Shown in pieces: positions 24,326 to 37,500 of a stretch of 64,000 nucleotides of DNA; the stretch's first letter is position 1; every line of letters begins with the position of its first letter. The notes under the pieces are model-generated. The model was not told the DNA's origin. It made no database searches and saw nothing but the letters and a program-made list of their open reading frames with translations. The position numbers and the translations under genes are program-made. Source of the DNA: Alteromonas sp. KC3 (GTDB taxonomy: Bacteria > Pseudomonadota > Gammaproteobacteria > Enterobacterales > Alteromonadaceae); the NCBI RefSeq assembly GCF_016756315.1, contig NZ_AP024235.1, positions 2,046,001-2,110,000 on the forward strand, given 5' to 3'.

Positions 24326-24430
24326 TACCTTACTTTTTACAACGGGCACTTACGCGCAGGCTAAAACTCGAAGCAGCCCACGTGTATGCGTCACAGCGAG
24401 ATTGCGAGCGATTTAATGCGTTTAATGTAT
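24326..24430 (-). repeat. attC-like site 1, degenerate (left-most)
   Basis: Contains the diagnostic core (AAGCAGCCCACGTGTATGCG then TCACAGCGAG) but the R' box is CCTTAC instead of CCTAAC and the R'' end is unclear. It marks the left end of the recognisable array. Confidence 0.65.
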
Positions 24431-24442
24431 TCAACCCATGCT

Positions 24443-24470
24443 TTGCAATGCGCAATCGCATGCGTATATT
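24443..24470 (+). promoter_or_regulatory. Predicted promoter of ccdAB
   Basis: TTGCAA, 16-base spacer, TATATT upstream of ccdA. The spacer includes an inverted repeat ATGCG/CGCAT that could be a CcdA-CcdB autoregulatory operator. A cassette-borne promoter is expected because ccdAB points against the other cassettes. Confidence 0.5.
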
Positions 24471-24499
24471 TGGTGGTGATATTAGTTGGAGCAATAAAA

Positions 24500-24745
24500 A
24501 TGCAAGATTTATATGACATCCATGCCCCAAAGAAAGCGACAAATTTAAGCTTGAACAGCGATTTACTGCAAAAAGCTCGAGATTTAAAAGTTAACCTGTC
24601 TGCAACCTTAGAGCAAGCACTTAAAGACAAGCTAAAAAATGTTGAAGCAGAGAAGTGGAAAAAAGAAAACAAAGCTGCCATTGCTGCATACAATGAATTT
24701 GTTGCTGAGAACGGTTGTATAGGTGATGAGTACCGAAACTTCTAA
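24500..24745 (+). CDS. ccdA: CcdA-type antitoxin
   Basis: 81 residues from ATG 24500 (GGAG eight bases upstream); the longer in-frame extension lacks an RBS. N-terminal ribbon-helix-helix part (KKATNLSLNSDLLQKARDLKVNLS) for DNA binding. The conserved C-terminal toxin-binding tail is W-x-x-EN-x-x-x-I-x-x-Y-N-x-F-V-x-x-x-G, ending DEYRNF. The stop overlaps the toxin start (TAATG). CcdA neutralises the gyrase poison CcdB. Toxin-antitoxin cassettes are common stabilisers of large integron arrays and often have their own promoter and reverse orientation, as here. Confidence 0.92.
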   Translation: MQDLYDIHAPKKATNLSLNSDLLQKARDLKVNLSATLEQALKDKLKNVEAEKWKKENKAAIAAYNEFVAENGCIGDEYRNF

Positions 24746-25062
24746 TGGCGCAGTTTGATGTTTACAGAAACCCAAGTAAGAAAACGAATAAAGCTTACCC
24801 TTTTCTTGTTGATGTTCAAAACTCTGTAATTGATTAGTTGGCAACAAGGCTGGTTGTACCGTTAACAAATAGCGATACTAGAAACAGTCTTTACATGAAA
24901 AAATTGACTCCTTCGATAGAATTCGAAGGCTCAATATACTTATTTTTAGCCCAACAACTAAGTTCCATACCCGAAGACGTGCTCAATGATCGCGTTGGTA
25001 CATTGGCGCAATCCAGAGAACTGCTGATAGATGCAATAGACTTCGCTATTACAGGAATATAG
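24745..25062 (+). pseudogene. ccdB: CcdB-type gyrase toxin interrupted by an in-frame amber codon
   Basis: Starts at 24745, overlapping ccdA by one base. The first 30 codons give MAQFDVYRNPSKKTNKAYPF...VQNSVID, a normal CcdB start. Codon 31 is TAG (24835-24837), where homologues continue D-N/T-x-x-T-R-L. The same frame then continues LATRLVVPLTNSD and ends QSRELLIDAIDFAITGI, the full CcdB C-terminus whose last residues contact gyrase. So one nonsense mutation separates two intact halves. The toxin is probably inactive unless the codon is suppressed or translation restarts at TTG 24838, which would lack the first 30 residues. Confidence 0.88.
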
Positions 25063-25103
25063 CGTCCCAGCGAGCAGCGCGAGTGCCTTTAGTTTTAGTT
25101 GCC
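25063..25103 (-). repeat. Half attC site fused to the ccdB end
   Basis: GCGTCCCAGCGAGC...GCGAGTGCCTTTAG matches the R''-side half of the other attC sites, but the L'-R' half is missing and the ccdB stop codon lies directly at its edge. A deletion or faulty recombination between the ccdAB cassette and the next cassette is likely. Confidence 0.65.
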
Positions 25104-25430
25104 TTAGTTAAAAATATTAATATATGACACATGTAGGCCAAACGCGATATAGCCTAGAGATAAAATGGCATTGAGAAACCAAATCAAGAGCCAAAACACA
25201 CCTGTAAAGTTAAAAATCTTTCGTATTTTAGGGCTTAATAGCGCAATTGTCGAAGTGATAGAGCCCAAAGCAGAGCAACAAAATAGTGGAAGCACTGTAA
25301 ACATTAATAAAAGGCCTGCAGCCCCCGCAGATGCCCCACTTGAGTCAGGTTCTATTGGAATTAATATCAAATACGATAAACAGACCGATACTAATAAAAA
25401 TAATAAGCTAAGTAATTGAAGACTTCTCAT
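25104..25430 (-). CDS. Cassette gene: small membrane protein
   Basis: 108 residues with about three membrane segments (near 5-25, 38-66 and 77-104) and two adjacent cysteines in the second (LFCCSALGS). No family recognised. It is bounded by attC 2 upstream and the half attC downstream. Confidence 0.6.
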   Translation of the reverse strand: MRSLQLLSLLFLLVSVCLSYLILIPIEPDSSGASAGAAGLLLMFTVLPLFCCSALGSITSTIALLSPKIRKIFNFTGVFWLLIWFLNAILSLGYIAFGLHVSYINIFN

Positions 25431-25442
25431 ATAGCCCCTAGT

Positions 25443-25546
25443 AGCTAACTTTTAAATAAGGGACGCAGACGCGTGGGCAGTAATGCAATGAAGCCCATGT
25501 GTTGGCGTCCCAGAAAATGGCAGCGAACGACTACAGTTGTTAGGAG
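25443..25546 (-). repeat. attC site 2
   Basis: R' box AGCTAAC, core with GCGTGGGCAGTAATGC...GCCCATGTGTTGGCGTCC, R'' box GTTAGGA. It has an atypical central stretch (AGAAAATGGCAGCG). It overlaps the stop of the next gene by a few bases. Confidence 0.8.
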
Positions 25547-25929
25547 ACATTCTTTAATATCTCCTTGTTTTTGAATCCTACTTTTGTTGCTACGAATACA
25601 ACCACACACGAAATAAATGCCTCAAAAGCGAATGTGGTTGAAAGATATAGTTCGCCCATAACGAGTGTATATAAAACAGTCGAGATTAAACAACTGCAAA
25701 TAAAAAGGATAATGGCGTGCTGGTATGGTTTTGAATTTAATCCGCTAGCAAACCACCAAAAAACTACAAAAGTTAAAATGCCACTCACAAGGTACGATGT
25801 TGTAATGAACATAACATCTGGCACAGGCACTTTAAACATTCCAAATACTAAAACCAATAATGCAACGCCTACAACAGGGAAAAGGATTGATAGAGGGATA
25901 AACAAAAATATCCTTTTTAACTGCAACAT
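25540..25929 (-). CDS. Cassette gene: small membrane protein, four predicted membrane segments
   Basis: 129 residues with hydrophobic segments near 7-31, 38-62, 72-91 and 97-118. No known family. It lies 37 bp downstream of the lipoprotein gene at 25.97 kb with no attC between, so the two genes share one cassette. Confidence 0.6.
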   Translation of the reverse strand: MLQLKRIFLFIPLSILFPVVGVALLVLVFGMFKVPVPDVMFITTSYLVSGILTFVVFWWFASGLNSKPYQHAIILFICSCLISTVLYTLVMGELYLSTTFAFEAFISCVVVFVATKVGFKNKEILKNVS

Positions 25930-25966
25930 TCATTTGCGTCCTTTCTTGATGAACTTATTACGCGCA

Positions 25967-26512
25967 CTAGGCGCCTTGGTATGACATCACCGCAACTAAG
26001 TTACTAGGTTTGGCACTATTTACTGTTATAACCCATTGTTCTAGAAAACTACTACCTTGATACAATGTATATGAAGTTGTAGTTAGACTACCAGATTGCG
26101 AAACTAACTCTTTTTTATAAGTAAACCCGCTGTCTTTGGGAGGTAACCAAGCTTCCAAACTTGCTTGAATTGTATTTGGCTCACCTTGGTGTATGTATAC
26201 AGAACAAAGTCCATTTTCTAGTAATGCAAGTCCGAAATTACCCTCATCATTCTTCAAGTACCAAGCTTTGCCTGCGTTACCTTTTAGGTAACTTTGAGAA
26301 ATTTGCTCAGGTGCAATTACGAATCCTTTTCTTTTGGCTGATTGCTCTAAAGCCGCAGGGCTTTGACGACCGACTACACACGTTCCCATGAACAACTGGA
26401 TTGGCGTTGATTTTCGTAGAGCAAGACCTTCATCTTCTTTTGCTAGAGTTGATTTACACCCAATGGTTGAAAGAAGCAGGGTTGCAACAATGTAAGATTT
26501 AACTCGATTCAT
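25967..26512 (-). CDS. Cassette gene: lipoprotein of unknown function
   Basis: 181 residues from ATG 26512, chosen because it gives a lipoprotein signal (LLLSTIGCKS, Cys near 19); an upstream ATG at 26560 would run back through the attC site. The mature part is beta-rich with two further Cys (GTCVVG and NGLCSVY). First gene of a two-gene cassette with the membrane protein that follows. Confidence 0.65.
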   Translation of the reverse strand: MNRVKSYIVATLLLSTIGCKSTLAKEDEGLALRKSTPIQLFMGTCVVGRQSPAALEQSAKRKGFVIAPEQISQSYLKGNAGKAWYLKNDEGNFGLALLENGLCSVYIHQGEPNTIQASLEAWLPPKDSGFTYKKELVSQSGSLTTTSYTLYQGSSFLEQWVITVNSAKPSNLVAVMSYQGA

Positions 26513-26520
26513 ATTCCGTA

Positions 26521-26632
26521 TGCCTGACTTTCCAATAACGGGATGAGACATGTGGGGCATAATGGCGAAGCCGTCCCGCGTGTATGCATCCCAGCGAACG
26601 TAGTGAGCGGCTATATTTGTTTGTTAGTTGCC
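26521..26632 (-). repeat. attC site 3
   Basis: R' box GCCTGAC (one change from GCCTAAC), core GGGGCATAATGGCGAAGCCG...CCCGCGTGTATGCATCCCAGCG, R'' box GTTAGTTGCC. Its variant core is shared with attC 9 at 29.7 kb. Confidence 0.82.
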
Positions 26633-26639
26633 AATTGCA

Positions 26640-26804
26640 TCAATGAGGCCCACCGTACTGAAGTACCAAATAAAAATACACTAAATAGCTAACCATCGTA
26701 AATATTTGAAACAATAGTAAGGTCCATTTTTGACGTGAAGTGAATTGCAGATTGCCTAAAGAGATTAGCGCAAAGACCAAAACACCGATAAGGGCGACCG
26801 GCAA
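26640..26804 (-). CDS. Cassette gene: very small membrane protein (non-ATG start)
   Basis: 54 residues from TTG at 26804, or 58 from TTG at 26816, ending at TGA 26640-26642. Two hydrophobic segments: LPVALIGVLVFALISLG and FQIFTMVSYLVYFYLVL, separated by a basic loop (TSRQKW). No ATG start and no clear ribosome binding site, so expression is uncertain. The cassette is otherwise normal, with an attC downstream and a short attC-like junction upstream. Confidence 0.4.
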   Translation of the reverse strand: MPVALIGVLVFALISLGNLQFTSRQKWTLLLFQIFTMVSYLVYFYLVLQYGGPH

Positions 26805-26838
26805 TAAACGCCCCAAACGCCTTTAGCGTTTCGTTAGG
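26800..26838 (-). repeat. attC-like site 4, unusually short
   Basis: About 39 bp. GGCAATAAAC on the left resembles the complement of the previous cassette's R'' (GTTAGTTGCC). An AAACGC/GCGTTT hairpin sits in the middle, and GTTAGGTGCG on the right is the R'' of the next cassette. It is either a minimal attC or an attC that lost its central 70 bp. Confidence 0.45.
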
Positions 26839-27508
26839 TGCGTTTTAGTTTAAAAAAACCTTCTTTTCTCGATAAATAATAAAGTGCCATAATTTGAGCG
26901 GCACAGATACCTAAAACTAATGCGATCGCGATTTCATAAGAATAACCGATGCCAACAAGGCAAATTATTGGCTCAGGGTGAATCCCGCCTATAAATATGA
27001 GATGCGGCATTCCGAAAAAGACGGGAAACACTGTATAGCAAAGTATGTCGTAGAACAAAAATGTGCCACACGCTGCAAGTGCTCTATAAACGCCCTTTGG
27101 CTTTATGAAGTAGAGGTACAGTGTACAAAAAAGAGAAACTAGATAAGTGGTACCACTTCCCATGAGACCGACTATTGGCAGCAAGGCACCGTCTTGGGAG
27201 GTATTCTTTGTAACTACTTTAAGCTCAGGCTTGAGTTTTAAAGATTGGGCGGACTCAGGAAATTCAATTACAAACCTAGGTGTTTCTGGAATAAAGCTGA
27301 CATAGGCAACCGAACTCCCAGGCCAGGCTGTAGTTGAAACGGTTGCGCCAATACTCGGGAACAGTTCAATACCGGGCCAGATATTGATAATTGGTGTTCC
27401 AAGCCCGAAGACTACTCCCGAAAAAGCATGGCCAGCTTCATGAATCAGAACAGACGCAAGAAAATAAAAAAACAAAAGACCAGCAAGCAACAAAATCCTT
27501 TTAAACAT
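26834..27508 (-). CDS. Cassette gene: M50-like intramembrane metallopeptidase
   Basis: 224 residues from ATG 27508; the longer ORF runs into attC 5. The first membrane helix contains HEAGH (H23-E24-xx-H27), the zinc site of site-2-protease/M50 peptidases. A 60-residue extracytoplasmic part follows, then about four more membrane segments. A second metal-ligand motif of the N/D-P-G type is not clear, so activity is uncertain. Intramembrane metalloproteases usually cleave membrane-anchored regulators; no partner is encoded in the same cassette. Confidence 0.7.
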   Translation of the reverse strand: MFKRILLLAGLLFFYFLASVLIHEAGHAFSGVVFGLGTPIINIWPGIELFPSIGATVSTTAWPGSSVAYVSFIPETPRFVIEFPESAQSLKLKPELKVVTKNTSQDGALLPIVGLMGSGTTYLVSLFCTLYLYFIKPKGVYRALAACGTFLFYDILCYTVFPVFFGMPHLIFIGGIHPEPIICLVGIGYSYEIAIALVLGICAAQIMALYYLSRKEGFFKLKRT

Positions 27509-27528
27509 AAGTAGCTCAATCCTTCTAG

Positions 27529-27626
27529 CACCTAACTCTAAGTAAGGCGCGCAGGCACGTGGTCTATAATGCGAAGTAGCCCGCATGTATGCAACTCAGC
27601 GAGCGAAGTAATTTTTTTGTTATGCT
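27529..27626 (-). repeat. attC site 5
   Basis: R' CACCTAAC, core GCACGTGGTCTATAATGCGA...AGCCCGCATGTATGCAAC, R'' GTTATGC. Shorter than most and with several substitutions in the L boxes. Confidence 0.8.
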
Positions 27627-28075
27627 CGTGCATGAAACGACCTAAATATTTTACTTATAACAACCAAAACCATGCATCCGATAATTGTGAAAAAAGATGC
27701 CCAGATTGGAATCCAAAGTATAGCCAAAGCAGATGTCGAGGAAGTATGTGCGTCAGTGAATAACGAGTGCTGCATTCCCCAATAGCCGTGCAGAATAAAT
27801 GAAGTGTTGAGTAGCAATATAATCCAAATGCCAATTCGGCCAAATGTAGTAGAACTCAACTTTGATTTAGCAGCAAAAAGACCTAAAACGATGAATGGAA
27901 TAGCTCTAAAGCCTGCAGAAAATAGATAACTATTAAAAGTTGAATATTGAAACGTTCGCTCGACAGCTGAATTAAACTCTAAGTGCCCTACAAAAACAGC
28001 AAGCAAAAATTTAGAGAGATATTCGTTTGCTAGTAAAAAAAGTAAAACTAAAGTAAACCAAAAATTCCTTTTCAT
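27620..28075 (-). CDS. Cassette gene: membrane protein, about four segments
   Basis: 151 residues with hydrophobic segments near 7-28, 48-63, 71-95 and 119-140. No family recognised. The C-terminus (FRSFHARA) is encoded inside the attC R'' end, which is common in cassettes. Confidence 0.6.
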   Translation of the reverse strand: MKRNFWFTLVLLFLLANEYLSKFLLAVFVGHLEFNSAVERTFQYSTFNSYLFSAGFRAIPFIVLGLFAAKSKLSSTTFGRIGIWIILLLNTSFILHGYWGMQHSLFTDAHTSSTSALAILWIPIWASFFTIIGCMVLVVISKIFRSFHARA

Positions 28076-28089
28076 AAATTTCCTATAAA

Positions 28090-28198
28090 GTGCATAACTT
28101 TTTAATAAGGGCGCAGGCGCGCGGGCGATAATGCGAAGTAGCTCACGTGTATACGCACCAGCCGGCGCCAGCAGACAACTTAACTTTTTTGTCAGGGT
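28090..28198 (-). repeat. attC site 6
   Basis: R' TGCATAAC, core GCGCGGGCGATAATGCGAAG...CTCACGTGTATACGCACC, R'' GTCAGGG (one change from GTTAGGG). The distal arm has a GCCGGCGCCAGC insertion. Confidence 0.8.
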
Positions 28199-28572
28199 AG
28201 CTTGCCGAAAGATGTATCGATACTAAGGGTATAAATATACCCATTGTTGATAAACTCAAATGATTCTTGTTGTCCAATTGTGAAGTCTCTAGCATCAGCG
28301 CCAACGTTGTATGGCTTGCCTGTAGACGTATCCTTGAGTGAAAAATATATATTTACCTCACCATCTTCTATGACTCTATTGGTCATCACAATTTGATATA
28401 GATTTGAGATTTTAAGGGTGTTCGAGGAATTAAAGTCCGCAAGTACTCCGGTGTTATAACTTTGCAGGACGTTCGAGCCAATTTCCTGTTTTTCGAATAC
28501 AAGCCGCGTGAACAAGTCGTCTTCTGCATTGACCGCGAAGCAACAAAGAAAAAATAAAACTAAAAACTTCAT
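28192..28572 (-). CDS. Cassette gene: small secreted protein
   Basis: 126 residues, signal peptide to about residue 17 (CCFAVNAEDD), then a soluble beta-rich protein ending YTLSIDTSFGKLP. No family recognised. Confidence 0.62.
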   Translation of the reverse strand: MKFLVLFFLCCFAVNAEDDLFTRLVFEKQEIGSNVLQSYNTGVLADFNSSNTLKISNLYQIVMTNRVIEDGEVNIYFSLKDTSTGKPYNVGADARDFTIGQQESFEFINNGYIYTLSIDTSFGKLP

Positions 28573-28593
28573 CTGAAAATTCCTTTTTCCGGT

Positions 28594-28695
28594 TACCCTA
28601 ACTTTTAAATATGGGGCGCATACGCATGGGCTAAAATGCGTAGCAGCCCATATGTTTGTTTTTCACCGAGCGAAGCAAGTACTTTGTAATACGTC
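28594..28695 (-). repeat. attC site 7
   Basis: R' ACCCTAAC, core GCATGGGCTAAAATGCGTAG...AGCCCATATGTTTG, degenerate R'' GTAATAC. It is the least conserved of the central sites. Confidence 0.75.
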
Positions 28696-29242
28696 ACCAT
28701 GCCAGGCTCTCCAATTCAATTTTATTGCCCACCTGCCTAACAACTCTAATCTTTGAATTCTTAACGTCTATATGCCAATTGCTTTTTGAGTGAATTTTCC
28801 CAATTTCCTTGGGGTTACCTGTGATTTTATTTGCAATGAAAAATGTATCAGTCTGTTTTTTACTGTCTCTTGTTACAACTAACATTGTCGGTTTTGGCTG
28901 TCTGTCAATGATGCCGGTATTATTTTTGACCGGAGATGAATAACTGTTATTAAACTCGACTACTCCGTCTTTCAGAGCTGTTTCAAAAGATAAAGCAACT
29001 ATTTGTTTTTCGTGATTTTCGGGAAACAAATAATAGCCGGAGTCTTTGGAGGGGTCATATATAAAAATATTCACAATAGCTTCGTCACTGCTGCTTAAGA
29101 AGCTTGATTCTTTTTCTAGTTTTACACTCTTAAAGTATAAGCCAGTCACCGGATCATATTGATCAATACTCGGGCTGTAATATCCACCGCCAACTGCGAA
29201 AAAAGAAAATAAAACTAGAGTTGTTGTGATTAAGTGTTTCAT
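28694..29242 (-). CDS. Cassette gene: secreted protein of unknown function
   Basis: 182 residues with a hydrophobic N-terminus (ITTTLVLFSFFAVGGGYYS) that could be a signal peptide. The mature part is beta-rich and lysine-rich near the C-terminus (IGKIHSKSNWHIDVKNSKIRVV). No family recognised. Preceded by GGAGGACAC, a strong ribosome binding site. Confidence 0.65.
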   Translation of the reverse strand: MKHLITTTLVLFSFFAVGGGYYSPSIDQYDPVTGLYFKSVKLEKESSFLSSSDEAIVNIFIYDPSKDSGYYLFPENHEKQIVALSFETALKDGVVEFNNSYSSPVKNNTGIIDRQPKPTMLVVTRDSKKQTDTFFIANKITGNPKEIGKIHSKSNWHIDVKNSKIRVVRQVGNKIELESLAW

Positions 29243-29272
29243 GTGTCCTCCTGACGTTTAACACCCGGCTAA

Positions 29273-29374
29273 GGGGCAAAATACATGGGCTATAAAAACG
29301 ATCGAAGCGATGACAGCCCACGTGATTTTTATCCCAGCAACCCGCGCAGCGGGTTGCGACTTGAGCGTTATGTT
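29273..29374 (-). repeat. attC site 8
   Basis: R' CGTTTAAC, core CATGGGCTATAAAAACGATC...ACAGCCCACGTGATTTTT, R'' GTTATGT. The apical loop carries GATCGAAGCGATGA rather than the common ATGCGAAGC. Confidence 0.78.
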
Positions 29375-29652
29375 TCTTTTGCATTGATTGTCTTAGCGAA
29401 TAGTTTCGCGAAATCAGTTTTAAACATTCTATCGATTGCTGTGATTTTAGATAGTAAAGCTTCTATATCAAATTGTTCCGGTTTGTTTTCTATGATGGCA
29501 AGAGCTTCATTGTGGAGTGAAAATGCAAGGTGCGCAGATATTTTTTCACTGGTCACTTCGTTAGTTGTACTGCCTAGATGATTACCCAATAGTCCTTTGA
29601 GCTCGTAAATGGCAAGTGCCAAGATTCGAAGTTGGGTCTCCTGATTATTCAT
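29368..29652 (-). CDS. Cassette gene: small helical cytoplasmic protein
   Basis: 94 residues from ATG 29652 (GGAAG seven bases upstream). No signal peptide; mostly amphipathic helix (LRILALAIYELKGLLGNHLG, then EKISAHLAFSLHNEALAII). No family recognised; a small dimeric binding or regulatory protein is possible. Confidence 0.6.
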   Translation of the reverse strand: MNNQETQLRILALAIYELKGLLGNHLGSTTNEVTSEKISAHLAFSLHNEALAIIENKPEQFDIEALLSKITAIDRMFKTDFAKLFAKTINAKET

Positions 29653-29671
29653 TTTGACTTCCTTAATATGA

Positions 29672-29780
29672 AACATGACTTTTCAATAACGGGCGCAGGC
29701 ACGTAGGGCATAATGGCGAAGCCGCCCCGCGTGTATGTGTCCCAGCGAACGCAGTGAATGTGTTGATTGGGTTGTTAGCT
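29672..29780 (-). repeat. attC site 9
   Basis: R' CATGAC (the complement matches the upstream cassette's R'' except for one base), core GTAGGGCATAATGGCGAAGC...CCCCGCGTGTATGTGTCCC, R'' GTTAGCT. Same core variant as attC 3. Confidence 0.82.
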
Positions 29781-30074
29781 GCTAAATGCCACGTACTCCC
29801 ACAGAGTTGGAATCAACCAGCCAACAAAAAATAATAAAAGAGCCAACCCAAGCGAAAACAAAATAAGCCATTTAGGGTGTATTTCTTCACCATCCGGATT
29901 GTCGTAACCACTTGGCAATTCATCTGGCATATGTACTAATTGAGTCACAGCAATAACAACACAAATACACTCAACGGCAAAGAGTAAACTTGATTGTGTG
30001 AAATACGAAATCGCTAATGCCACACAAGAAATTGTTAATATTGAACTTCTTATACCTGACAGATACTTATTCAT
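29775..30074 (-). CDS. Cassette gene: small membrane protein
   Basis: 99 residues, about three hydrophobic segments (9-27, 28-45 and 68-92) with a polar acidic loop (PDELPSGYDNPDGEE) facing one side. No family recognised. Confidence 0.58.
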   Translation of the reverse strand: MNKYLSGIRSSILTISCVALAISYFTQSSLLFAVECICVVIAVTQLVHMPDELPSGYDNPDGEEIHPKWLILFSLGLALLLFFVGWLIPTLWEYVAFSS

Positions 30075-30082
30075 TTCTCTTG

Positions 30083-30194
30083 GCTGCTAACTTTTCAATA
30101 AGAGGCGATGACGCGTGGGGCGTTATAGCGAAGCGGCCCTGCGTGTTTGCGTCTCAGTGGGCACTAGCCCACGATTTTATTTTTTGTTAGCAAT
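30083..30194 (-). repeat. attC site 10
   Basis: R' TGCTAAC, core GCGTGGGGCGTTATAGCGAA...GCCCTGCGTGTTTGCGTC, R'' GTTAGCA. The apical arm has TGGGCACTAGCCCACG. Confidence 0.82.
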
Positions 30195-30198
30195 CATG

Positions 30199-30753
30199 TT
30201 AATCAAAGTCAATGTAGCCGCCAAGTTTACCGCAATGAATACATTTAAATATGTAAGCACTTGGTGACCCATCAGCATCGAGTGACTGAAAGAAGCCTTC
30301 CCATTCTCCGTCTTTTAGACCGTACGTCGCGGTTGCCTCGGATTTTAAACTGACTTCTAAATCCTGACCGTATTCATTTATCTCCCTGAATCCGGCACAA
30401 CCAAGAAAATCTGTACCGTCATTACAATGCGTCCACCACTTTTCCTGTTGCCAACCAGTAAAACCAGGAGTTAAATAGGTTATTTCTTCCTTGACTGATG
30501 AAGCCACGTCGTCCCAATCACCATATCCACCTATACCGTCGTAATCTGTAAACTCCGCATCAAATTTCTTGTGGGCAGTACCATCTGCGATACACCAAGG
30601 ACATATTGAGTCTTCTAATTCGACTTCAGAATAGGGCAGCCCACCATAGATATATCCGGTGGCTTTACCACAGCACAGGCAAACTGCATCTGACTCAATG
30701 ATTGACCCTGACTTTAACGGATCAGAATGATATTTAAACTTAGGAAGTTCCAT
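30199..30753 (-). CDS. Cassette gene: CbrC-family (UPF0167) protein
   Basis: 184 residues. It starts LPKFKYHSDPLKSGSIIES, followed by VCLCCGKATGYIY, ICPWCIADG and the late KCIHCGKLGGYID. The paired cysteines look like a zinc-binding core. E. coli CbrC of this family is associated with tolerance to colicin E2, through an unknown mechanism. Preceded by GGAGGAAC, a very strong ribosome binding site. It is one of the few cassette genes with a recognisable family. Confidence 0.85.
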   Translation of the reverse strand: MELPKFKYHSDPLKSGSIIESDAVCLCCGKATGYIYGGLPYSEVELEDSICPWCIADGTAHKKFDAEFTDYDGIGGYGDWDDVASSVKEEITYLTPGFTGWQQEKWWTHCNDGTDFLGCAGFREINEYGQDLEVSLKSEATATYGLKDGEWEGFFQSLDADGSPSAYIFKCIHCGKLGGYIDFD

Positions 30754-30764
30754 GTTCCTCCTTA

Positions 30765-31163: not shown

Positions 31164-31170
31164 CCTTGGA

Positions 31171-31288
31171 ACACCTAACTTTAAGCTAAGGAGCAGTAAT
31201 GCGTGGGCTAAAATCCGAACGAAGCGACAGAGCCCACGTGTTACTGTCCCAGCGAGCCTACGAGCGGCTTAATGTGATTGTTAGGTAC
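31171..31288 (-). repeat. attC site 12
   Basis: R' CACCTAAC, core GCGTGGGCTAAAATCCGAAC...GAGCCCACGTGTTACTGTCC, R'' GTTAGGTAC. The apical part carries GAACGAAGCGACAG. Confidence 0.82.
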
Positions 31289-31291
31289 GTT

Positions 31292-31780
31292 CTACTGACT
31301 AAAATAGGTATCTCCTCGCACTATGGAGGTATTAGACTTCTCGTCACTAATTAGGACTTCTGGGTCAGCGGTTGCAAGAACAAACACCGTCTGATCTTCT
31401 GTCCAGATATAATACCCCAAAATTTCATCAGGCCCAGTTTGATCAACAATACTGTCTGACTGCACATACTTTTGATATTCGAGGCCATTGCACTTTTTTA
31501 CAGGGCCGAATTCATGGGTAATATCTAATTTTTCTGTAGGTGAAGAGTAAGACTCATCAATTATATGGAACGAAACCACTTCGTTAAAGATGACTCGTAG
31601 ACTTCGACTCGTTTCCAAAACTTTAACAGGGAAATAAGGCCCGATCGGAGTACCAGTATCAGACAACACCATTTCTCGCTCATTTGACTTAACACCCTCA
31701 ACCAGTTTGATGCTAAGCACACTAGGGTGATGGAACTCTGCCTTTTCGAAAAACCATGTGTCTACCTTCGGAATATTCAT
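31292..31780 (-). CDS. Cassette gene: cytoplasmic protein of unknown function
   Basis: 162 residues, no signal peptide. Beta-rich with an immunity-protein-like look (KVDTWFFEKAEFHHPSVLSIKL, then acidic strands and EDQTVFVLATADPEVL), but I cannot assign a family. Its upstream cassette boundary is where the first IS110 element is inserted. Confidence 0.6.
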   Translation of the reverse strand: MNIPKVDTWFFEKAEFHHPSVLSIKLVEGVKSNEREMVLSDTGTPIGPYFPVKVLETSRSLRVIFNEVVSFHIIDESYSSPTEKLDITHEFGPVKKCNGLEYQKYVQSDSIVDQTGPDEILGYYIWTEDQTVFVLATADPEVLISDEKSNTSIVRGDTYFSQ

Positions 31781-31795
31781 AAGTACCTAGACACA

Positions 31796-31808
31796 ATGAC
31801 TCCCTGTG
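31796..31808 (+). repeat. Left subterminal inverted repeat of the first IS
   Basis: ATGACTCCCTGTG, paired with its complement at 33354-33366 (one mismatch). Confidence 0.85.
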
Positions 31809-31810
31809 AA

Positions 31811-31899
31811 ATGCTAGCCTCCGCATTCTCGTGGGTTAACTTTTCAGCCAGAGCCATAATTAGTTTGTTCAATACTAAATCAATTTGGAGGCTAGCATG
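31811..31899 (+). promoter_or_regulatory. Stem that can mask the transposase ribosome binding site and start codon (first IS)
   Basis: ATGCTAGCCTCC at 31811-31822 is a perfect 12-bp complement of GGAGGCTAGCAT at 31888-31899, which contains the Shine-Dalgarno sequence and the AT of the ATG. In any transcript that enters from the left, this pairing would close the start. It probably limits transposase made from readthrough of flanking genes, as in other IS families. Confidence 0.7.
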
Positions 31900-33051
31900 A
31901 ACAAACATAGCATGATTTTTATCGGATTGGATACGCATAAAGAGTTTCACGAAGTTGCTTATTGTGAAGAACAGCGTGGCGCGTCGCCCGTTCATTATGG
32001 TCGTATTCCCTCCTCTAAGGTCTGTGTCAAAAAGCTTATTCGCCAGTTTGAATCTAAATATCCTGGTGCAACACTTCACGTTGTTTATGAGGCTGGCCCT
32101 TGTGGCTATTGGATTTATCGTCTGATAACGAGCTTGGGACACTGTTGCTATGTTGTGGCACCGTCTCTTATCCCGAAAAAGCCAGGAGAGCGAATTAAAA
32201 CCGACCGACGAGATGCGCTTAAGCTCGTTAGGTCACTAAAGTCTGAAGACCTTACACCCATCTATGTGCCCGAGCCGGAAGATGAAGCTGTGCGGGATTT
32301 ATCTCGAGCTCGAGAAGCAGCAATGAAGGATTTAAAAGAAGCGAAGTACCAGCTTAAAGCTTTACTATTGCGAAACAACATACGCTATGAAGGTACGGCC
32401 AACTGGTCGAAGAAACACCTTCGCTGGCTCACGGAATTGATATTGCCTCACCCGGCCCAGCAAATTGTCTTACAAGAACAATTGCAAACCATAGAAGAGC
32501 GTATCCGGCGACTGGAAAGGCTCGACAATGAGTTAACCCACCATGTACACCAATGGCGTTATTATCCGGTAGTGAAAGCCGTTCAGGCGATGCGAGGTGT
32601 TCGATTGCTCGTTGCTGTTGGAGTGGTGGCAGAGCTTGGTGATTTACAGCGTTTTGACCATCCAAGAAAACTCATGGCGTATTTAGGTTTAGTCCCCAGC
32701 GAACAATCATCAGGCGGAAAGCGACACTTAGGAGCCATTACAAAAGCAGGAAATGGCCGAGCACGGCGTTTACTGATTGAGGGGGCGCACAGCTACCGTT
32801 ATCCGGCTAACGTCTCTACTGAATTACAGTTAAGGCAGGAAGGCTTACCTAAAGACATCGTCGATATCGCTTGGAAAGCACAGCTTCGCTTGTGCAAACG
32901 CTATCAGCGCATGAGTAAAAAGGGTAAACACTACAATTTAATCGTTACCGCGATTGCCAGAGAAATGGCTGCTTATATTTGGGCTATTGCAAAGGAAGTG
33001 GTACTTACGCCGGTTAATCCAAAACTAAGATTGAGCCGAGTACCTGCATGA
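31897..33051 (+). CDS. IS110-family (IS1111 group) DEDD transposase/recombinase
   Basis: 384 residues from ATG 31897 (GGAGG upstream). N-terminal RuvC-like domain with acidic residues D12 (FIGLDTH), E65 (VVYEAGPCGYW), D103 and D106 (KTDRRDALKL). A coiled linker (about 128-215) leads to the C-terminal Tnp_20 domain from MRGVRLLVAVGVVAELG, with the serine region PSEQSSGG (S268, S271, S272) and TKAGNGRARRLLIEGAH. IS110 recombinases use a non-coding RNA to choose target and donor. The frame is intact, so the element may be active. Confidence 0.95.
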   Translation: MNKHSMIFIGLDTHKEFHEVAYCEEQRGASPVHYGRIPSSKVCVKKLIRQFESKYPGATLHVVYEAGPCGYWIYRLITSLGHCCYVVAPSLIPKKPGERIKTDRRDALKLVRSLKSEDLTPIYVPEPEDEAVRDLSRAREAAMKDLKEAKYQLKALLLRNNIRYEGTANWSKKHLRWLTELILPHPAQQIVLQEQLQTIEERIRRLERLDNELTHHVHQWRYYPVVKAVQAMRGVRLLVAVGVVAELGDLQRFDHPRKLMAYLGLVPSEQSSGGKRHLGAITKAGNGRARRLLIEGAHSYRYPANVSTELQLRQEGLPKDIVDIAWKAQLRLCKRYQRMSKKGKHYNLIVTAIAREMAAYIWAIAKEVVLTPVNPKLRLSRVPA

Positions 33052-33350
33052 TAAACGAGTTTGAGCTAACGCATTTGGATCAGGCCGCGGGATGTGGCAC
33101 AACCTACGAGGGCGTTATGATGGCGATAACTTAACGGTTATTGATCCACGAGCATAGACTGATGAGAAGGTGACCACGGCGGAGTGAGTAAGGTAGGCGC
33201 TGTTCATTATAATTAATGAATAACCCACGAATACCAGCATGATAACCGACGACATTACTGCCTCATCCGGTGCGTTAGCTCATTTATTTTGAGTAATAAA
33301 GAATACTAATTATGGGCTGAAAGAGTGTCAGGGAAGCGCTCGTTCAGGGT
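33052..33350 (+). ncRNA. Candidate bridge (seek) RNA region of the first IS
   Basis: About 300 bp without an ORF between the transposase stop and the right inverted repeat, the place where IS1111-group elements encode their RNA. A stem GGATCA/TGATCC (33077-33082, 33142-33147) encloses a loop with ACCT (33102-33105) and GGGCGTTA (33110-33117). These correspond to the left target ACCT and the complement of the right target TAACGCCC. A second region has ATACCAG (33231-33237), identical to the joined IS ends (ATACC|AG), next to a TTCATT/AATGAA hairpin. RNA boundaries are unknown. Confidence 0.6.
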
Positions 33351-33353
33351 TGA

Positions 33354-33366
33354 CAAAGGGAGTCAT
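33354..33366 (-). repeat. Right subterminal inverted repeat of the first IS
   Basis: CAAAGGGAGTCAT, the mate of 31796-31808. Confidence 0.85.
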
Positions 33367-33369
33367 ACC

Positions 33370-33476
33370 AACGCCCAACTAAGGGGCGATAACACATGGG
33401 CTAAAATTAGGAACGAAGTGACGCAGCCCATGTGTTAGCGTCCCAGCGAGCGAAGCGAGTGCCTTGAGTGGTTTGA
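33370..33476 (-). repeat. attC site 13, interrupted by two IS elements
   Basis: R' is split by the first IS (ACCT at 31785-31788, AAC at 33370-33372). The core ACATGGGCTAAAATTAGGAA...GCAGCCCATGTGTTAGCG is intact. The second IS separates the body from the R'' end GTTATACC at 35070-35077. The rebuilt site would be about 115 bp. Confidence 0.8.
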
Positions 33477-33482
33477 TACTTA

Positions 33483-33559
33483 TTGAGCCTTCTCCCCAGC
33501 TTATCCAATTTTATTGGCTAAGCTGGAAGGCGACCAAACCCAAAATGGAGAAGACTCAA
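33483..33559 (+). promoter_or_regulatory. Stem that can mask the transposase ribosome binding site (second IS)
   Basis: TTGAGCCTTCTCC (33483-33495), overlapping the left inverted repeat, pairs with GGAGAAGACTCAA (33547-33559) at 12 of 13 positions; the latter is the Shine-Dalgarno region up to the start codon. Between the arms lies a strong hairpin CAGCTTA/TAAGCTG extended by CCAAT/ATTGG (33497-33525). Confidence 0.68.
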
Positions 33560-34605
33560 TGCAATTCTATACTAACTTACATCCTTTTTACTGCGGAATC
33601 GATCTTCATGCACGAATGCTTTATGTGTGCATCCTAGATGAACGCGGCGAGATACTGGTTCATAAGAAGATAAAAGATTCTCCCGAGCAGCTTTTAAACC
33701 TTCTTTCACCCTACATCGGGAATATTGTGGTGGGCGCAGAATGTATGCACTGCTGGTACTGGCTTAGTGATTTTTGTGAACATCATAATATTGATTTTAT
33801 CCTTGGCCACGCTCTCTACATGAAAGCTATTCATGGCGGTAAGACGAAGAACGATAAAATTGATGCGTACAAGATTGCCAAGTTAATACGAGGTGGTAAT
33901 TTTCCTTTGGCTTATGTTTATCCAAAGGAAAAACGTGCTATTCGAGATTTATTGCGTAGACGAACGCACGCCATGCGCCATAGTGCCGAGTTGAAAGCAT
34001 TCATAAAGAATGCGTTGTCACAATACAACCTGCCAGTACCTGAAAAGTCAGACCTAAGCTACACCACCGGTCGCGATGCAATGCGTGGACACTTCCCTAA
34101 TCCACAGGTTCAACGCAGTATTGATATGAATCTACGATTGATAGAAGTTTACGACCATGAAGTCAGCAGTATTGAATGTTATGTAGAAAAGCTCACTAAG
34201 CATGATAATGGTAGAGACTACTATCTGCTGCGTTCATTGCCTGGTGTCGGGCGAGTATTGGCCCTTACCATTCTTTATGAGATTGGCACTATTAAGCGCT
34301 TTGACAGTGTTCAGAAGTTTGCGTCTTATTCTCGGCTAGTCAAATGCAAAGCGGAATCAGCCGGTAAAGCCTACGGTACACAGGGTAATAAAATTGGTAA
34401 TGCGCACCTTAAATGGGCGTTCTCTGAAGCCGCAGTGCTGTTTTTGAAGGGTAATCCTCCGGCGCAAGCTTATCTCGCAAAATTACAGAAGCGCATGAGC
34501 AAAGCTAAAGCGCTCTCTGCATTGGCACATAAACTTGGTCGTTGTATGTACTTTATGTTGAAGAATCAAACGGTGTTTGACAGTGAGCGCTTTTTAGCGG
34601 GGTAA
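33559..34605 (+). CDS. IS110-family DEDD transposase/recombinase, second type
   Basis: 348 residues from ATG 33559 (GGAG upstream); an upstream in-frame ATG at 33514 has no such site. RuvC-like acidic residues D15 (YCGIDLHARM), E61 (VVGAECMHCWYW), D99 and D102 (KNDKIDAYKIAKLI). C-terminal Tnp_20 domain from SLPGVGRVLALTILYEIG to RLVKCKAESAGKAYGTQGNKIGN, with the serine within CKAESAGK. Clearly diverged from the first transposase (a different IS, not a duplicate). The frame is intact. Confidence 0.95.
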   Translation: MQFYTNLHPFYCGIDLHARMLYVCILDERGEILVHKKIKDSPEQLLNLLSPYIGNIVVGAECMHCWYWLSDFCEHHNIDFILGHALYMKAIHGGKTKNDKIDAYKIAKLIRGGNFPLAYVYPKEKRAIRDLLRRRTHAMRHSAELKAFIKNALSQYNLPVPEKSDLSYTTGRDAMRGHFPNPQVQRSIDMNLRLIEVYDHEVSSIECYVEKLTKHDNGRDYYLLRSLPGVGRVLALTILYEIGTIKRFDSVQKFASYSRLVKCKAESAGKAYGTQGNKIGNAHLKWAFSEAAVLFLKGNPPAQAYLAKLQKRMSKAKALSALAHKLGRCMYFMLKNQTVFDSERFLAG

Positions 34606-35050
34606 GTCGCACAGACGGATGAGCTGACCGCCTAACTGGTCGAATGGCGAGTATTGTGTTCATGATGATTTAGGGAAAAGAGCCTGTTCAACATGAACTA
34701 TACCAGTGTCCACAGCCACTACGCTTTGATTAGACATCCGTCTGTTGCGCATCAACACTCTGTGCTAAATCGCTTGCGCCTGAACTGAGCCTGCCCCTAA
34801 CTGGCGACATAAATCAGCCACTACGTTTGAATAGTGCCAGCATCAGGTTAACCGATGAATGTCTAGTGCCCCTGTACTCGTAATGGATTCCATGGTAACA
34901 GGCAGCGATGAGATCGCACTAAGAGAGCCTCTATATGTGTTTGCCGCAGGCGATGCCTTACGGCAACAATGACAGATGAAGCTAGGAGATTTAGCCCAGA
35001 GATTTGGACTGGCTGCTAACGCAGCCAGAGAAATACTATTATCTATTGAC
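34606..35050 (+). ncRNA. Candidate bridge (seek) RNA region of the second IS
   Basis: 445 bp without an ORF after the transposase. AGACGGATG (34613-34621) pairs perfectly with CATCCGTCT (34735-34743). Two near-identical segments, CAGCCACTACGCTTTGATTAG (34713-34733) and CAGCCACTACGTTTGAATAG (34815-34834), lie in separate loops, the second enclosed by CTGGC/GCCAG. Both contain TTTGA(T/A), similar to the left target flank GGTTTGA. This fits a two-loop RNA with target and donor guides, but the guides are not resolved. Confidence 0.5.
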
Positions 35051-35076
35051 GGGAGTTGGGCTCATATGTGTTATAC

Positions 35077-35532
35077 CTACTGTTTACTTACAGAGAGCAC
35101 ACTGTAAGCCCAAACATTTATTTTAAGTTCTTTGCAAAGAGCACCATCCATGCAAATGCCACTAAACCAAATATCTCCAAACCCTATATTTAGTCCGTTG
35201 TAATTATAAAATAAGTTTTTAAATTGCTGCTCTTTAACCCTTGTCAGCATTTCCGGTGTAACAATGCTGTCGTAGTTTTCAATGAATTGTTCTATGGTAT
35301 CGTAATAAACGCTACCGCTAGGATAATTAACTCGTATTGGATACAAGTTTAGCGACGCTACCTGTTGCTTATCACCCGATAACAAGCTTGATTTTAAATT
35401 TAAGAAGAAAGCTTCGTAGTCTAGATCACTTTTAAAATACTCGTTGAGTCTCTTATTCGAAATATCCTTAACATTGTCGGAAAATGCCGGACCACTGAAC
35501 AATAAAAGAAAAATAACTAGGTAAGCTCTCAA
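35077..35532 (-). CDS. Cassette gene: secreted protein of unknown function
   Basis: 151 residues, signal peptide to about residue 18 (SGPAFSDN). It has the pattern NLYPIRVNYPSGSVYYDTIEQFIENYDSIVTPEM and a late FGDIWFSGICMDGALCKELK with a probable disulfide pair. The same pattern occurs in small exported proteins of enteric bacteria, without known function. Its stop overlaps the R'' end of the interrupted attC 13. Confidence 0.68.
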   Translation of the reverse strand: MRAYLVIFLLLFSGPAFSDNVKDISNKRLNEYFKSDLDYEAFFLNLKSSLLSGDKQQVASLNLYPIRVNYPSGSVYYDTIEQFIENYDSIVTPEMLTRVKEQQFKNLFYNYNGLNIGFGDIWFSGICMDGALCKELKINVWAYSVLSVSKQ

Positions 35533-35543
35533 TTAAACACCCT

Positions 35544-35657
35544 GTAGGTATAACTTTTAAATAAGGGGCGCAGGCGCGTGGGCTAAAATGCGAAGCAGCC
35601 CACGTGTATGCGTCCCAACGAACGCAGTGAGTGCCTTAATTTTTTTGTTAGGTGCGT
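35544..35657 (-). repeat. attC site 14, near consensus
   Basis: R' end GTAGGTATAAC, an 11-base complement of the neighbouring cassette's R'' end at 35070-35080; core GCGCGTGGGCTAAAATGCGA...AGCAGCCCACGTGTATGCG; R'' GTTAGGTG. Confidence 0.9.
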
Positions 35658-35668
35658 GTAGATACATC

Positions 35669-36007
35669 CTAGTTTTCCCTGCCAAGGTAAGCCCTGATTG
35701 ATGAAATTAAACCTGCGTTATTGAATGTTACAACGTCTACAACGTAAAGTACTTCTGTCTGGTTAACTATAATCTTGAGCTCTCCAGAGACTGAGTTCTC
35801 GTTTTCCATAATATTTAAGATTTCGATTTCCAAACTTGAAGCATTGTTAAAATTCTTCTGAGTTTCTGATATGGCGATAGCTTTACCATGAACAGAGATT
35901 TTCCAATCTCTTAAATGAATATCGGGTGCAAAGAGTTTTGAAACCGCTTCGATATCTTTGTTTTGATAGCTAAGAAGATACGATTTAAACTTTTCTGAAT
36001 TATTCAT
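35669..36007 (-). CDS. Cassette gene: cytoplasmic NTF2-like (SnoaL) protein
   Basis: 112 residues from ATG 36007 (GGATTGG upstream; a TTG two codons earlier is less likely). SEKFKSYLLSYQNKDIEAVSKLFAPDIHLRDW is the typical SnoaL first helix pair, and the last strand reads VDVVTFNNAGLISSIRAYLG. No signal peptide, unlike the NTF2-like proteins at 20-23 kb. The ligand or reaction is unknown; the family includes small-molecule isomerases and many binding proteins. Confidence 0.78.
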   Translation of the reverse strand: MNNSEKFKSYLLSYQNKDIEAVSKLFAPDIHLRDWKISVHGKAIAISETQKNFNNASSLEIEILNIMENENSVSGELKIIVNQTEVLYVVDVVTFNNAGLISSIRAYLGREN

Positions 36008-36020
36008 TTCCAATCCTTAG

Positions 36021-36133
36021 AAGCACCTAACGCTAAGCTAAGGGGCGCAGGCATGTGGGCTAAAATGCGAAGCAGCCCACGTGTATGCGTCCCAGCCTGC
36101 GCAGCAGGCGACTTAATTTTTTTGTTAGGCGCC
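36021..36133 (-). repeat. attC site 15
   Basis: R' GCACCTAAC, core GCATGTGGGCTAAAATGCGA...AGCAGCCCACGTGTATGCG, R'' GTTAGGC. The apical part has CCTGCGCAGCAGG. Confidence 0.88.
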
Positions 36134-36541
36134 ATTCGCTAGTCTAATTACACCTACCAAAGCGTTGATTAATAAGGCGCCAGCTGCAAGCCATAAGCTA
36201 ATCCTAGTGTATTTGTTTGACTTTTTTATGGCCGCGTACTCAGCGTTTCTTTTTTGAAGTATCTCTGCCGCAGAAAACATCATGCTTTTTTGTACTGGGT
36301 AATAAAAACAGTTCTTTCGACATGCTCCAACAACGGTTTTATAAAAGTCTTCGTCTTTTCGTATTCCTTCATCCCAAACTCCCATATAGCACCTAAACCA
36401 GCTATACATCTGTAAGTCAGGCTTTGTTTTAGTTTGTAATATTACAGCTCGCTCTTTTGCTGAAACAGAACTTGTTGACCTGTCTTCTTTTAACAGAACA
36501 CTTTTAGCGAAGAAGTGGCAGTTGTTGCAGTTTTTCTTCAT
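36125..36541 (-). CDS. Cassette gene: Cys-rich protein with a C-terminal membrane anchor
   Basis: 138 residues. Four to five cysteines are arranged like zinc ligands (C5-xx-C8, C51, and C74-x4-C79 in VGACRKNCFYYP). A charged helix (ILQKRNAEYAAIKKSNKY) and one C-terminal membrane segment (WLAAGALLINALVGVI) follow. It may be a cytoplasmic zinc or iron-sulfur domain anchored by its tail. No family recognised. No lipobox or signal peptide. Confidence 0.65.
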   Translation of the reverse strand: MKKNCNNCHFFAKSVLLKEDRSTSSVSAKERAVILQTKTKPDLQMYSWFRCYMGVWDEGIRKDEDFYKTVVGACRKNCFYYPVQKSMMFSAAEILQKRNAEYAAIKKSNKYTRISLWLAAGALLINALVGVIRLANGA

Positions 36542-36552
36542 GGCTCAATCCT

Positions 36553-36665
36553 TGGTGCCTAACTTTTAAATAAGGGGCGCAGACGCGTGGGCTACAATGC
36601 GAAGCAGCCCACGTGTATGCGTCCCAGCGAACGAAGTGAGTGACTTAATTTTTTTGTTATGTGCG
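36553..36665 (-). repeat. attC site 16, near consensus
   Basis: R' GTGCCTAAC, core ACGCGTGGGCTACAATGCGA...AGCAGCCCACGTGTATGCG, R'' GTTATGTGC. The paired boxes CGCGTGGGCT and AGCCCACGTG form the main stem. Confidence 0.9.
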
Positions 36666-37016
36666 TGCATGAAACTGCCTAAGAATGATAATGCCACATA
36701 TTGAAAACGAAGCTAGGGACACTAACAAAGGTAAGCCAAACGAAATTATAAAACCTACTGAGATTAACAAGGCATAGCCAATGCAAAAGTTTGCTGCGCT
36801 TAGTTTGGAGACATTTGGAAATTTAAAAGAAGAATAGATTCCGATAGAGATACTTATAAGCCCCAAAACACAACCAAAAATTAAAAGAAAAGCTCCGAGC
36901 TCAGTGGGTGGTCCAAGTATAAGGATACTTGTACCCAGTAATGTTAACGGAATAAGGACAATTGCATTAACGAGAACAAATGTTATAAGCAGTATTTTTT
37001 GGTCTTTTAATTCCAT
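36657..37016 (-). CDS. Cassette gene: membrane protein, four predicted segments
   Basis: 119 residues with hydrophobic segments near 8-29, 33-61, 73-96 and 97-113. No family recognised. Right-most clear gene of the array, so by integron logic one of the most recently added and best expressed cassettes. Confidence 0.6.
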   Translation of the reverse strand: MELKDQKILLITFVLVNAIVLIPLTLLGTSILILGPPTELGAFLLIFGCVLGLISISIGIYSSFKFPNVSKLSAANFCIGYALLISVGFIISFGLPLLVSLASFSICGIIILRQFHART

Positions 37017-37029
37017 TTTTACCTTTAAA

Positions 37030-37140
37030 GCACATAACTTTTAAATAAGGGGCGCATTCACGTGGGCTAATATGCGAAGCAGCCCACGTGTATGCGTCCC
37101 AGTGCGCACCAGCGCACGACTTAATTTTTTTGTTATACAC
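37030..37140 (-). repeat. attC site 17 (right-most)
   Basis: R' GCACATAAC (complement of attC 16 R'' GTTATGTGC), core TCACGTGGGCTAATATGCGA...AGCAGCCCACGTGTATGCG, R'' GTTATACAC. Its cassette would extend right to 37370. Confidence 0.88.
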
Positions 37141-37364
37141 AAACCGTCTGTTAACTGCCAGCATGTTGAAGAAAATAGAGTAAAAGCACCGAATAAAACA
37201 ACTAGCGATTCTGACTTCTATTAGTCGCCAAAGAAGGGAGCTGCTTGAGTTGAAAAGCAGAACTTTTGAGTTACCTTCGAGGCTAGCCAAAAACTAAAAC
37301 GAACCCCCAAAGCCGTTGTAAAAAAGCGCTGAACTTTGACTTACTCTTTACTAAAAAATGGGTG
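37141..37364. other. Body of the right-most cassette, no convincing gene
   Basis: About 225 bp between attC 17 and the boundary GTGTATAAC at 37363-37371, which is the exact complement of attC 17's R'' GTTATACAC. The only long reading frame starts at a TTG and runs straight through the attC, so I do not call it. The cassette could carry a promoter, an RNA or a decayed gene. Confidence 0.5.
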
Positions 37365-37500
37365 GTGTATAACAATTTAGTGTACGGAAAAAATCCTTTT
37401 TACAATGCGGACTTTATCCATCTATCACTCAAATAATTCTTTAACTTTCTCACGTAAATAAATCCACATCAACGTCTTACAACATTTAGTGTAAATGGAG
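37363..37500 (-). other. Array edge, attI-like candidate
   Basis: Read on the minus strand, ACACTAAATTGTTATACACC (junction, 37363-37382) and ACACTAAATGTTGTAAG (37481-37497) form an imperfect direct repeat about 110 bp apart, each with a GTT core. Integron attI sites contain such GTT-type repeats beside the first cassette. An adjacent integrase gene is expected but absent, so this could also be only the last junction with the old flank. Confidence 0.35.

Follow-up and report, generated by a model that had tools for sequence, protein, structure and literature searches.

An integrase-less attC array beside cysK in Alteromonas sp. KC3 starts at a conserved attI-type site and is probably a satellite integron

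The genome of Alteromonas sp. KC3 consists of one contig of 4,561,647 bases (NZ_AP024235.1). The window analysed here is the stretch of 64,000 nt at positions 2,046,001-2,110,000, and it harbors an array of 16 attC sites on the minus strand (24319-37142) with no integron-integrase gene beside them. We consider it quite probable that this array is a satellite integron, that is, a platform with an attI site and an attC array that has no integrase gene of its own and would have been loaded in trans. Of the features of a complete integron, an attI at the array end is present as judged by homology, and intI in cis is absent. Read from its sequence, the array fits the definition of a cluster of attC sites lacking integron-integrases (CALIN), and its anatomy is that of an integron platform.

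A preliminary description of this DNA had listed about 17 attC-like sites at 24326-37370, no integrase in the window, and cysK following at the right end. The large array proved to be real: the 16 sites align as one repeat family, and with two half-sites (25060-25093 and, by eye, about 26800-26840) the earlier count was a fair one. The coordinates were nearly exact, with the leftmost match beginning at 24319 and the right-hand core GTTA at 37370-37373. Since an Rfam search of the window gave no match at gathering score, the attC model (R1) was built from the 16 window sites themselves. Its RNAalifold structure has only 13 pairs, and it acts mostly as a sequence profile. The model scored the repeats and, in a search of the whole genome (4.56 Mb; 150 of 822 first-look candidates scored), gave 62 matches with E ≤ 0.01. 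Only 46 of these are independent, the remaining 16 being the window sites on which the model was trained. The matches form three clusters, all on the minus strand: array A with 31 sites (537-560.6 kb), the window array B with 16, and the integrase-less array C with 15 (2.414-2.426 Mb). The earlier proposal to look for intI and further arrays in the whole genome thus yielded arrays A and C and a single match above the TIGR02249 cut-off. This intI (561150-562097, an open frame of 325 codons) lies beside array A, 1.5 Mb from the window array; no intI match was present within 1.5 kb upstream of the window attI, and none directly beside the array. In the genus, TIGR02249 matched above cut-off in 56 of 59 genomes.

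The preliminary description overlooked that an attI is kept at the right end of the array and that it recurs at integrase-less loci of the genus. We took the sequence downstream of cysK from 20 relatives, some stretches being ended by contig ends, and found attC sites there in nine. In eight of these nine the array lies behind a small gene that adjoins cysK (lipoprotein-like by eye, with only sub-threshold Pfam matches); in the ninth, G039, and in the window the platform follows directly behind cysK. All ten edges carry a conserved stretch ending in TAAATTGTTA, after which the bases differ in each. A genus scan added three cysK-locus copies (G023, G044, G049), and the first bases past the core differed in 13 of 13. 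Averaged over all pairs of the 11 copies that follow the small gene, identity was 0.79-0.86 in this gene, 0.44 in the 16 nt ahead of a LexA-type box and 0.79 in the box itself. It was 0.61-0.67 in most of the spacer and rose to 0.91 in the last 57 nt, the attI. In three blocks past the core it was 0.39, 0.24 and 0.14, with gaps scored as differences and just 47 bp available there in one of the 11 copies. A conserved block with divergent sequence past the core is the pattern expected of an attI, and we are nearly certain that the right edge of the window array is such a site. The elements of this edge are as follows.

37646-38617, minus strand: cysK, conserved chromosomal neighbour of the platform, with a match in 58 of 59 genus genomes; we presume the gene to be cysK.
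37558-37573, minus strand: LexA-type box CTGTATTTAAATACAG, 204 nt ahead of the core end, spaced as in intI-bearing leaders.
37427-37557, minus strand: spacer of the integron leader, recognised by identity to intI-bearing leaders.
37370-37426, minus strand: attI-type recombination site of 57 nt, recognised by homology to attI beside intI; it ends in the core GTTA (37373-37370), after which the first cassette starts.

A CTG-N10-CAG box, which we take to be a putative LexA site, is present 204-205 nt ahead of the core end in 11 of 12 intI-bearing leaders, and the window box at 204 nt has the same placement. It was found in 12 of 13 cysK-locus leaders, at 175-204 nt, and in 17 of the 24 integrase-less leaders scanned, a count that leaves out L198 (not matched by the pattern) and the leader beside an intI fragment. 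A simple consensus scan of 37000-37700 gave no sigma-70-like (Pc) promoter site. LexA-mediated control of intI promoters within the SOS response has been described (PMC3108266), and the kept box may mean that satellites answer DNA damage on their own.

Our first idea had been that cassettes were put by chance at a genomic GTT (attG) and grew into an array from there. Insertion at secondary sites is known (PMC12444791), and the array edge is indeed a GTT core. However, the edge is not random: it comprises the 57-nt block and the LexA-type box at the spacing of intI leaders. The idea was dropped because the edge is conserved in relatives and homologous to attI beside intI; we regard it as extremely improbable.

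The homology to attI was seen outside and inside the genus. A profile of the ten cysK-locus sites was run on the loci at hand, including 80 intI loci of named records. Outside the ten sites it gave nine matches with E below 1, and seven of these, in seven loci outside the genus, precede intI by 84-264 bp in the expected orientation; the other two lie elsewhere in L111. The intI-side matches had E-values of 1.4e-5 (L111), 3.2e-4 (L071) and 0.04-0.63 (L067, L069, L061, L057, L070), the weak ones counting, as we read them, by their position. Further matches at E 1-10 were off attI positions or on the opposite strand.

Within the genus, a sequence model of the ten sites had a match in 30 of 59 genomes. 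With 85 candidates scored per genome under strict filters, this search gives lower bounds; its 75 rows comprised 72 distinct copies and three opposite-strand echoes, and 70 of the 72 were examined (those of 27.1 and 22.5 bits being left out). Among these 70 copies, 23 lie beside a full-length intI match (159-169 bp away), 46 have no intI and one lies beside an intI fragment. At least one further copy without intI is carried by 22 of the 23 genomes with an intI-side attI. Seven genomes, the window genome among them, have only attI copies without a complete intI beside them, and the number of integrase-less copies per genome reaches four (G018, G025). Of the integrase-less copies, 41 had 300 bp or more of sequence past the attI, and 37 of them were followed by same-strand attC sites; among the intI-side copies it was 17 of 20. 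Satellite arrays were as large as intI arrays in four genomes, with 28-33 attC sites in stretches of up to 20 kb.

The attI of 11 cysK-locus copies and of 12 intI-side copies were 0.895 alike, almost as much as the intI-side ones among themselves (0.904). For the spacers, these values were 0.41 and 0.75. The site was therefore preserved as the remaining leader diverged. Twelve other copies were compared, including the one beside an intI fragment, and nine of them have an attI that is 0.88-0.92 like the intI-side ones; the spacers of the 12 gave values of 0.31-0.79. The window spacer has a mean identity of 0.56 to the 12 intI-bearing leaders and of 0.45 to 11 other cysK-locus leaders. Since it is nearer to the intI-bearing leaders and its platform lies on the other side of the small gene, the window platform may stem from an event separate from that behind the cysK-locus platforms of other species.

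Two types of attI were found. The intI-side attI of the window genome and of G022, G023, G024, G038 and G039 is of type 2, which ends in GATTAAATTGTTA preceded by GGACAAAAA-CCCGTTC. The window attI is of type 1 and thus unlike that of the resident intI, which makes the earlier claim that one integrase type built the array doubtful. The edge of array C resembles type 2: a 24-mer pattern (≤3 mismatches) occurred in the genome only at this edge and at the attI beside intI, and its reversed control did not occur in the genome. At the array C locus, G039 has a site nearly identical to its own attI. A narrow pattern for the attI of this locus had a fitting site in 5 of 30 loci (G000, which is the window genome, G041, G049, G038, G039), and attC sites within 1.5 kb were present in 7 of 30; both counts are lower bounds, the 30 loci coming from 30 of the 57 genomes that have the neighbouring gene. 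With array C resembling type 2, the window genome, as these sites read, carries an intI-bearing platform and two satellites, one per attI type. A different integron family was seen in G020, G045 and G006 (L218, L219, L223), where the intI leaders have several ACTGAGA-type repeats before the core and are unlike both attI types.

The starts of the first cassettes were also compared. The start GGCGTCATTTA was found right behind attI at six platforms of four genomes (L152, L157, L165, L204, L028, L182), intI-side as well as satellite. Another start, AAGGCGTCAG (or one base off), was found at four more platforms and at A01 of the window genome. Certain cassettes may prefer the first place or profit from it.

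The integrase-less state could also have arisen by loss: a complete integron would have lost its intI at this locus, the array would only have decayed since, and the attI would still be visible because the loss is not old. The leader retains the box, the spacing and the attI of intI-bearing leaders without an intI frame, and no other attI among the ten compared has diverged as far as that of the window. The distal attC sites of the window array fold poorly. A half-way state is present in G021 (L181, 0.52 Mb), where a type-1 attI lies beside an intI match of 97 residues and the genome has no intI match at E ≤ 1e-60; this locus reads as an integron in decay. Against a mere remnant, the attI block in 11 species is conserved above the neighbouring gene with a diverged spacer, the first bases past the core differ in all 13 cysK-locus copies, and some satellites hold arrays of intI-array size. 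We therefore consider this explanation unlikely. The preliminary description had left the choice between a cluster remaining after integrase loss and an array fed by an integrase elsewhere, and each holds a piece: the leader resembles an integron leader without intI, and an intI with an open frame is present elsewhere in the genome.

For the satellites of the genus as a group, loading in trans appears very likely to us. IntI made elsewhere would excise cassettes by recombination of folded single-stranded attC sites, and the excised cassettes would be inserted in trans at a satellite attI (attC x attI). In this way one integrase would serve several chromosomal platforms, and selection would maintain the satellite attI sites.

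Folding of the attC bottom strands, scored against dinucleotide shuffles and apart from the model, gave z below -2 in 10 of the 16 window sites. All eight sites on the attI side but only two of eight on the far side reached this value, the six non-folders all being among the eight leftmost sites. Folding weakened with distance from the attI end, both in array B of the window (rho 0.75, p 0.0008, 16 sites) and in array A (rho 0.60, p 0.0004, 31 sites). The arrival of new cassettes at the attI end together with ageing of the far-end sites would explain this polarity.

We compared the cassettes of the three arrays. C01 (534 bp) has one mismatch to A23, with A10 equally close, C03 (566 bp) has one mismatch to A11, and C05 (423 bp) is identical to A01. 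In all three, the homology to array A begins and ends at a GTT core, and the neighbouring cassettes differ. Over 339 bp, C02 has the same sequence as the end of A02, where an insertion sequence (IS) lies ahead of it. The body of B07 is 98.4% identical over 307 bp to A24; its left edge is GTTA, and the ungapped match ends before the attC. Near-identical cassettes in A and C could have been produced by homologous or segmental copying without IntI, as identical IS copies are also present in the arrays and single events of this kind are possible. We think this very unlikely as the general cause, given the three cassettes bounded by the GTT core on both sides with differing neighbours.

The comparison was extended to 19 satellite arrays of 12 genomes, a choice set by the stretches available, of which some were short; only cassettes with a body of 120-1300 bp were counted. 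At ≥99% identity, 6 of 206 satellite cassettes matched the intI array of their own genome, versus 0 of 2266 comparisons with the intI arrays of other genomes. These matches stem from three genomes, namely G000 (array C), G025 and G047.

Several observations weigh against the loading in trans. Sharing was less specific at 97% (7 of 206 in the own genome versus 5 of 2266 in others) and at 90% (12 of 206 versus 38 of 2266). Fifteen of the 19 satellite arrays had no cassette in common with their own intI array at 97%, and the window array has only one counted cassette, B07, in common with array A at ≥97%. At 95% over 200 bp, in stretches of up to 12 kb, there were 5 matches within genomes (G012, G018, G054) versus 18 between genomes; the whole-cassette rule excludes G012 and G018, and G054 is not in that comparison. 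Four of the 41 satellite attI copies had no attC in the stretch examined, and the first recognised attC lay 4.3 kb (G039) and 2.3 kb (G024) from the attI. In three other integrase-less copies, the likeness of the attI to those beside intI was just 0.72-0.81. At 9 of 57 positions the window attI departs from the consensus, compared with 0-5 positions in the nine other copies examined. Finally, the folding polarity of array C was not significant (rho 0.32, p 0.24).

A further argument on the same side concerns concerted evolution: gene conversion with an intI-side attI could keep satellite attI alike without function, and attI copies at different places in one genome are indeed alike. However, the cysK-locus attI have 2-5 differences from the consensus in genomes with a type-2 intI (G022, G024, G038, G039), compared with 0-4 in four type-1 genomes; the window genome, also type 2, has 9. 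This point is weak, because the copies in question themselves went into the consensus and a second type-1 satellite is present in G038. We hold this explanation to be improbable.

Whether trans loading of the window array goes on in this strain today is a separate matter, and we find it doubtful, since its attI has diverged further than the nine others compared, its type is unlike that of the resident integrase, and a single, slightly diverged counted cassette is in common with array A. Because the window attI is of type 1 and the attI of the resident intI of type 2, most of the content was probably loaded by an earlier type-1 integrase. The array may now be served weakly or not at all.

In the Vibrio-type sedentary chromosomal integron, there is one attI beside intI. 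The attI, the attC array and the LexA-type leader box are in common with the present case, but here intI is not in cis and there are several attI platforms per genome. We lean, if only by a little, toward a distributed integron in the genus, in which one intI would serve several selectively kept attI platforms and the CALINs called by software would be live satellites.

A CALIN as defined by IntegronFinder likewise consists of two or more attC sites without intI nearby. CALINs have been described as proposed degraded integrons (PMC9024848) and as mobilisable in trans (PMC12444791). Unlike CALINs as described in these sources, the attI and leader are kept here and conserved across species. The CALINs of Xanthomonas are found at relatively conserved loci (PMC12444791); they are likewise integrase-less at fixed loci, and their genomes may keep intI elsewhere. 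The passages on them report no attI, and the authors contrast them with attG insertion (PMC12444791).

For Alteromonas, three attC regions per genome were described, one of them with intI, the third being missing in A. australica H17 (Lopez-Perez 2014, PMC4119200). Two integrase-less attC regions are thus already in print for this genus, and they are very probably of the same kind as the window array. The section on these regions in that paper makes no mention of attI there, of more than three regions, or of cassettes common to regions. Narrow search terms in the open-licence literature gave no reports of attI at CALINs or of a second or orphan attI, and integrase-less arrays that start at an attI, of which we found none in print, would be what is new here. 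According to one large survey, attI outside class 1 is poorly described and not detected by IntegronFinder (PMC9024848); attI at CALINs would therefore be routinely missed. The same survey counted 2961 integrase-less arrays and 2760 complete integrons (PMC9024848), so the former were about as common as the latter. Should many CALINs retain an attI and receive their cassettes in trans, the genome rather than the locus would be the functional unit, and cassette capacity would be underestimated.

The cassette genes of the window array are small, lie mainly on the minus strand and in most cases had no family assignment. Among 17 non-transposase cassette proteins, three had Pfam matches above the curated cut-off (SnoaL-like, UPF0167, CcdA), and PADLOC found no family among 10 proteins, one of which lies outside the array. 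From the attI end to the far end, the array contains the following features.

37024-37142, minus strand: attC of B01 (cassette from 37372 to about 37033, no ATG frame of more than 44 codons on its own strand); R1 120.4 bits, fold z -7.8.
36549-36666, minus strand: attC of B02 (gene 36657-37016, 119 aa, no Pfam match above cut-off); R1 134.8 bits.
36017-36134, minus strand: attC of B03 (gene 36125-36541, 138 aa, no Pfam match); R1 118.9 bits.
35540-35657, minus strand: attC of B04 (gene 35669-36013, SnoaL-like, PF12680 with 27.3 bits at a cut-off of 27); R1 128 bits.
33476-35073, plus strand: IS110-type element within B05, ending at the B05 attC (transposase 33514-34605; PF01548, PF02371); 100% identity over 1598 bp to a copy in array A.
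33358-33485, minus strand: attC of B05 (gene 35077-35532, 151 aa, no Pfam match); R1 93 bits.
31788-33367, plus strand: second IS110-type element, directly after the B05 attC (transposase 31885-33051; PF01548, PF02371); 100% identity over 1580 bp to two array A copies.
31165-31290, minus strand: attC of B06 (gene 31292-31780, 162 aa, no Pfam match); R1 95.6 bits.
30759-30876, minus strand: attC of B07 (gene 30894-31163, 89 aa); R1 126.5 bits.
30077-30196, minus strand: attC of B08 (gene 30199-30753, UPF0167, PF03691 with 191.2 bits); R1 86.8 bits.
29665-29784, minus strand: attC of B09 (gene 29775-30074); R1 99.6 bits.
29248-29382, minus strand: attC of B10 (gene 29368-29676); R1 59.9 bits.
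28588-28696, minus strand: attC of B11 (gene 28694-29242); R1 84.7 bits.
28084-28201, minus strand: attC of B12 (gene 28192-28572); R1 90.6 bits.
27522-27629, minus strand: attC of B13 (gene 27620-28075); R1 90.3 bits.
26514-26633, minus strand: attC of B14 (gene 26834-27586, plus the half-site near 26800-26840); R1 97.5 bits.
25435-25553, minus strand: attC of B15 (genes 25967-26560 and 25540-25929); R1 92.2 bits.
24386-24745, plus strand: CcdA-type antitoxin gene (PF07362, 103.2 bits).
24319-24434, minus strand: attC of B16, degenerate and the leftmost of the array (gene 25104-25430 and half-site 25060-25093, with the CcdA-type gene on the opposite strand); R1 85 bits, fold z +1.8.

In the region 24386-25093, the CcdA-type gene is read in the direction opposite to the array, and the frame behind it is broken by a stop near 24834. 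We presume this partner frame to be CcdB-like, and from its sequence it looks inactivated. Farther left, between the array and the lipoprotein-like gene, 18300-24300 is occupied by small genes on the minus strand, among which no attC sites were recognised. This stretch may be former array content, or a variable region that has nothing to do with the array.

The cassette of about 335 bp without a sizeable reading frame (37033-37372 in the window) occurs in all three arrays, with five copies in A and one in C. Its copies are mostly 78-89% identical to each other, and two are 100% identical. Gene-less cassettes with promoter activity are known from Vibrio (PMC11014356).

The IS110-type element at 31788-33367 has three places in array A (in L016 and L120), and in all four array copies of the genome (A02, A08, A14, B06) it lies directly behind the GTT core of an attC. 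Elements of the IS1111 family that target attC sites are known (PMC11187229).

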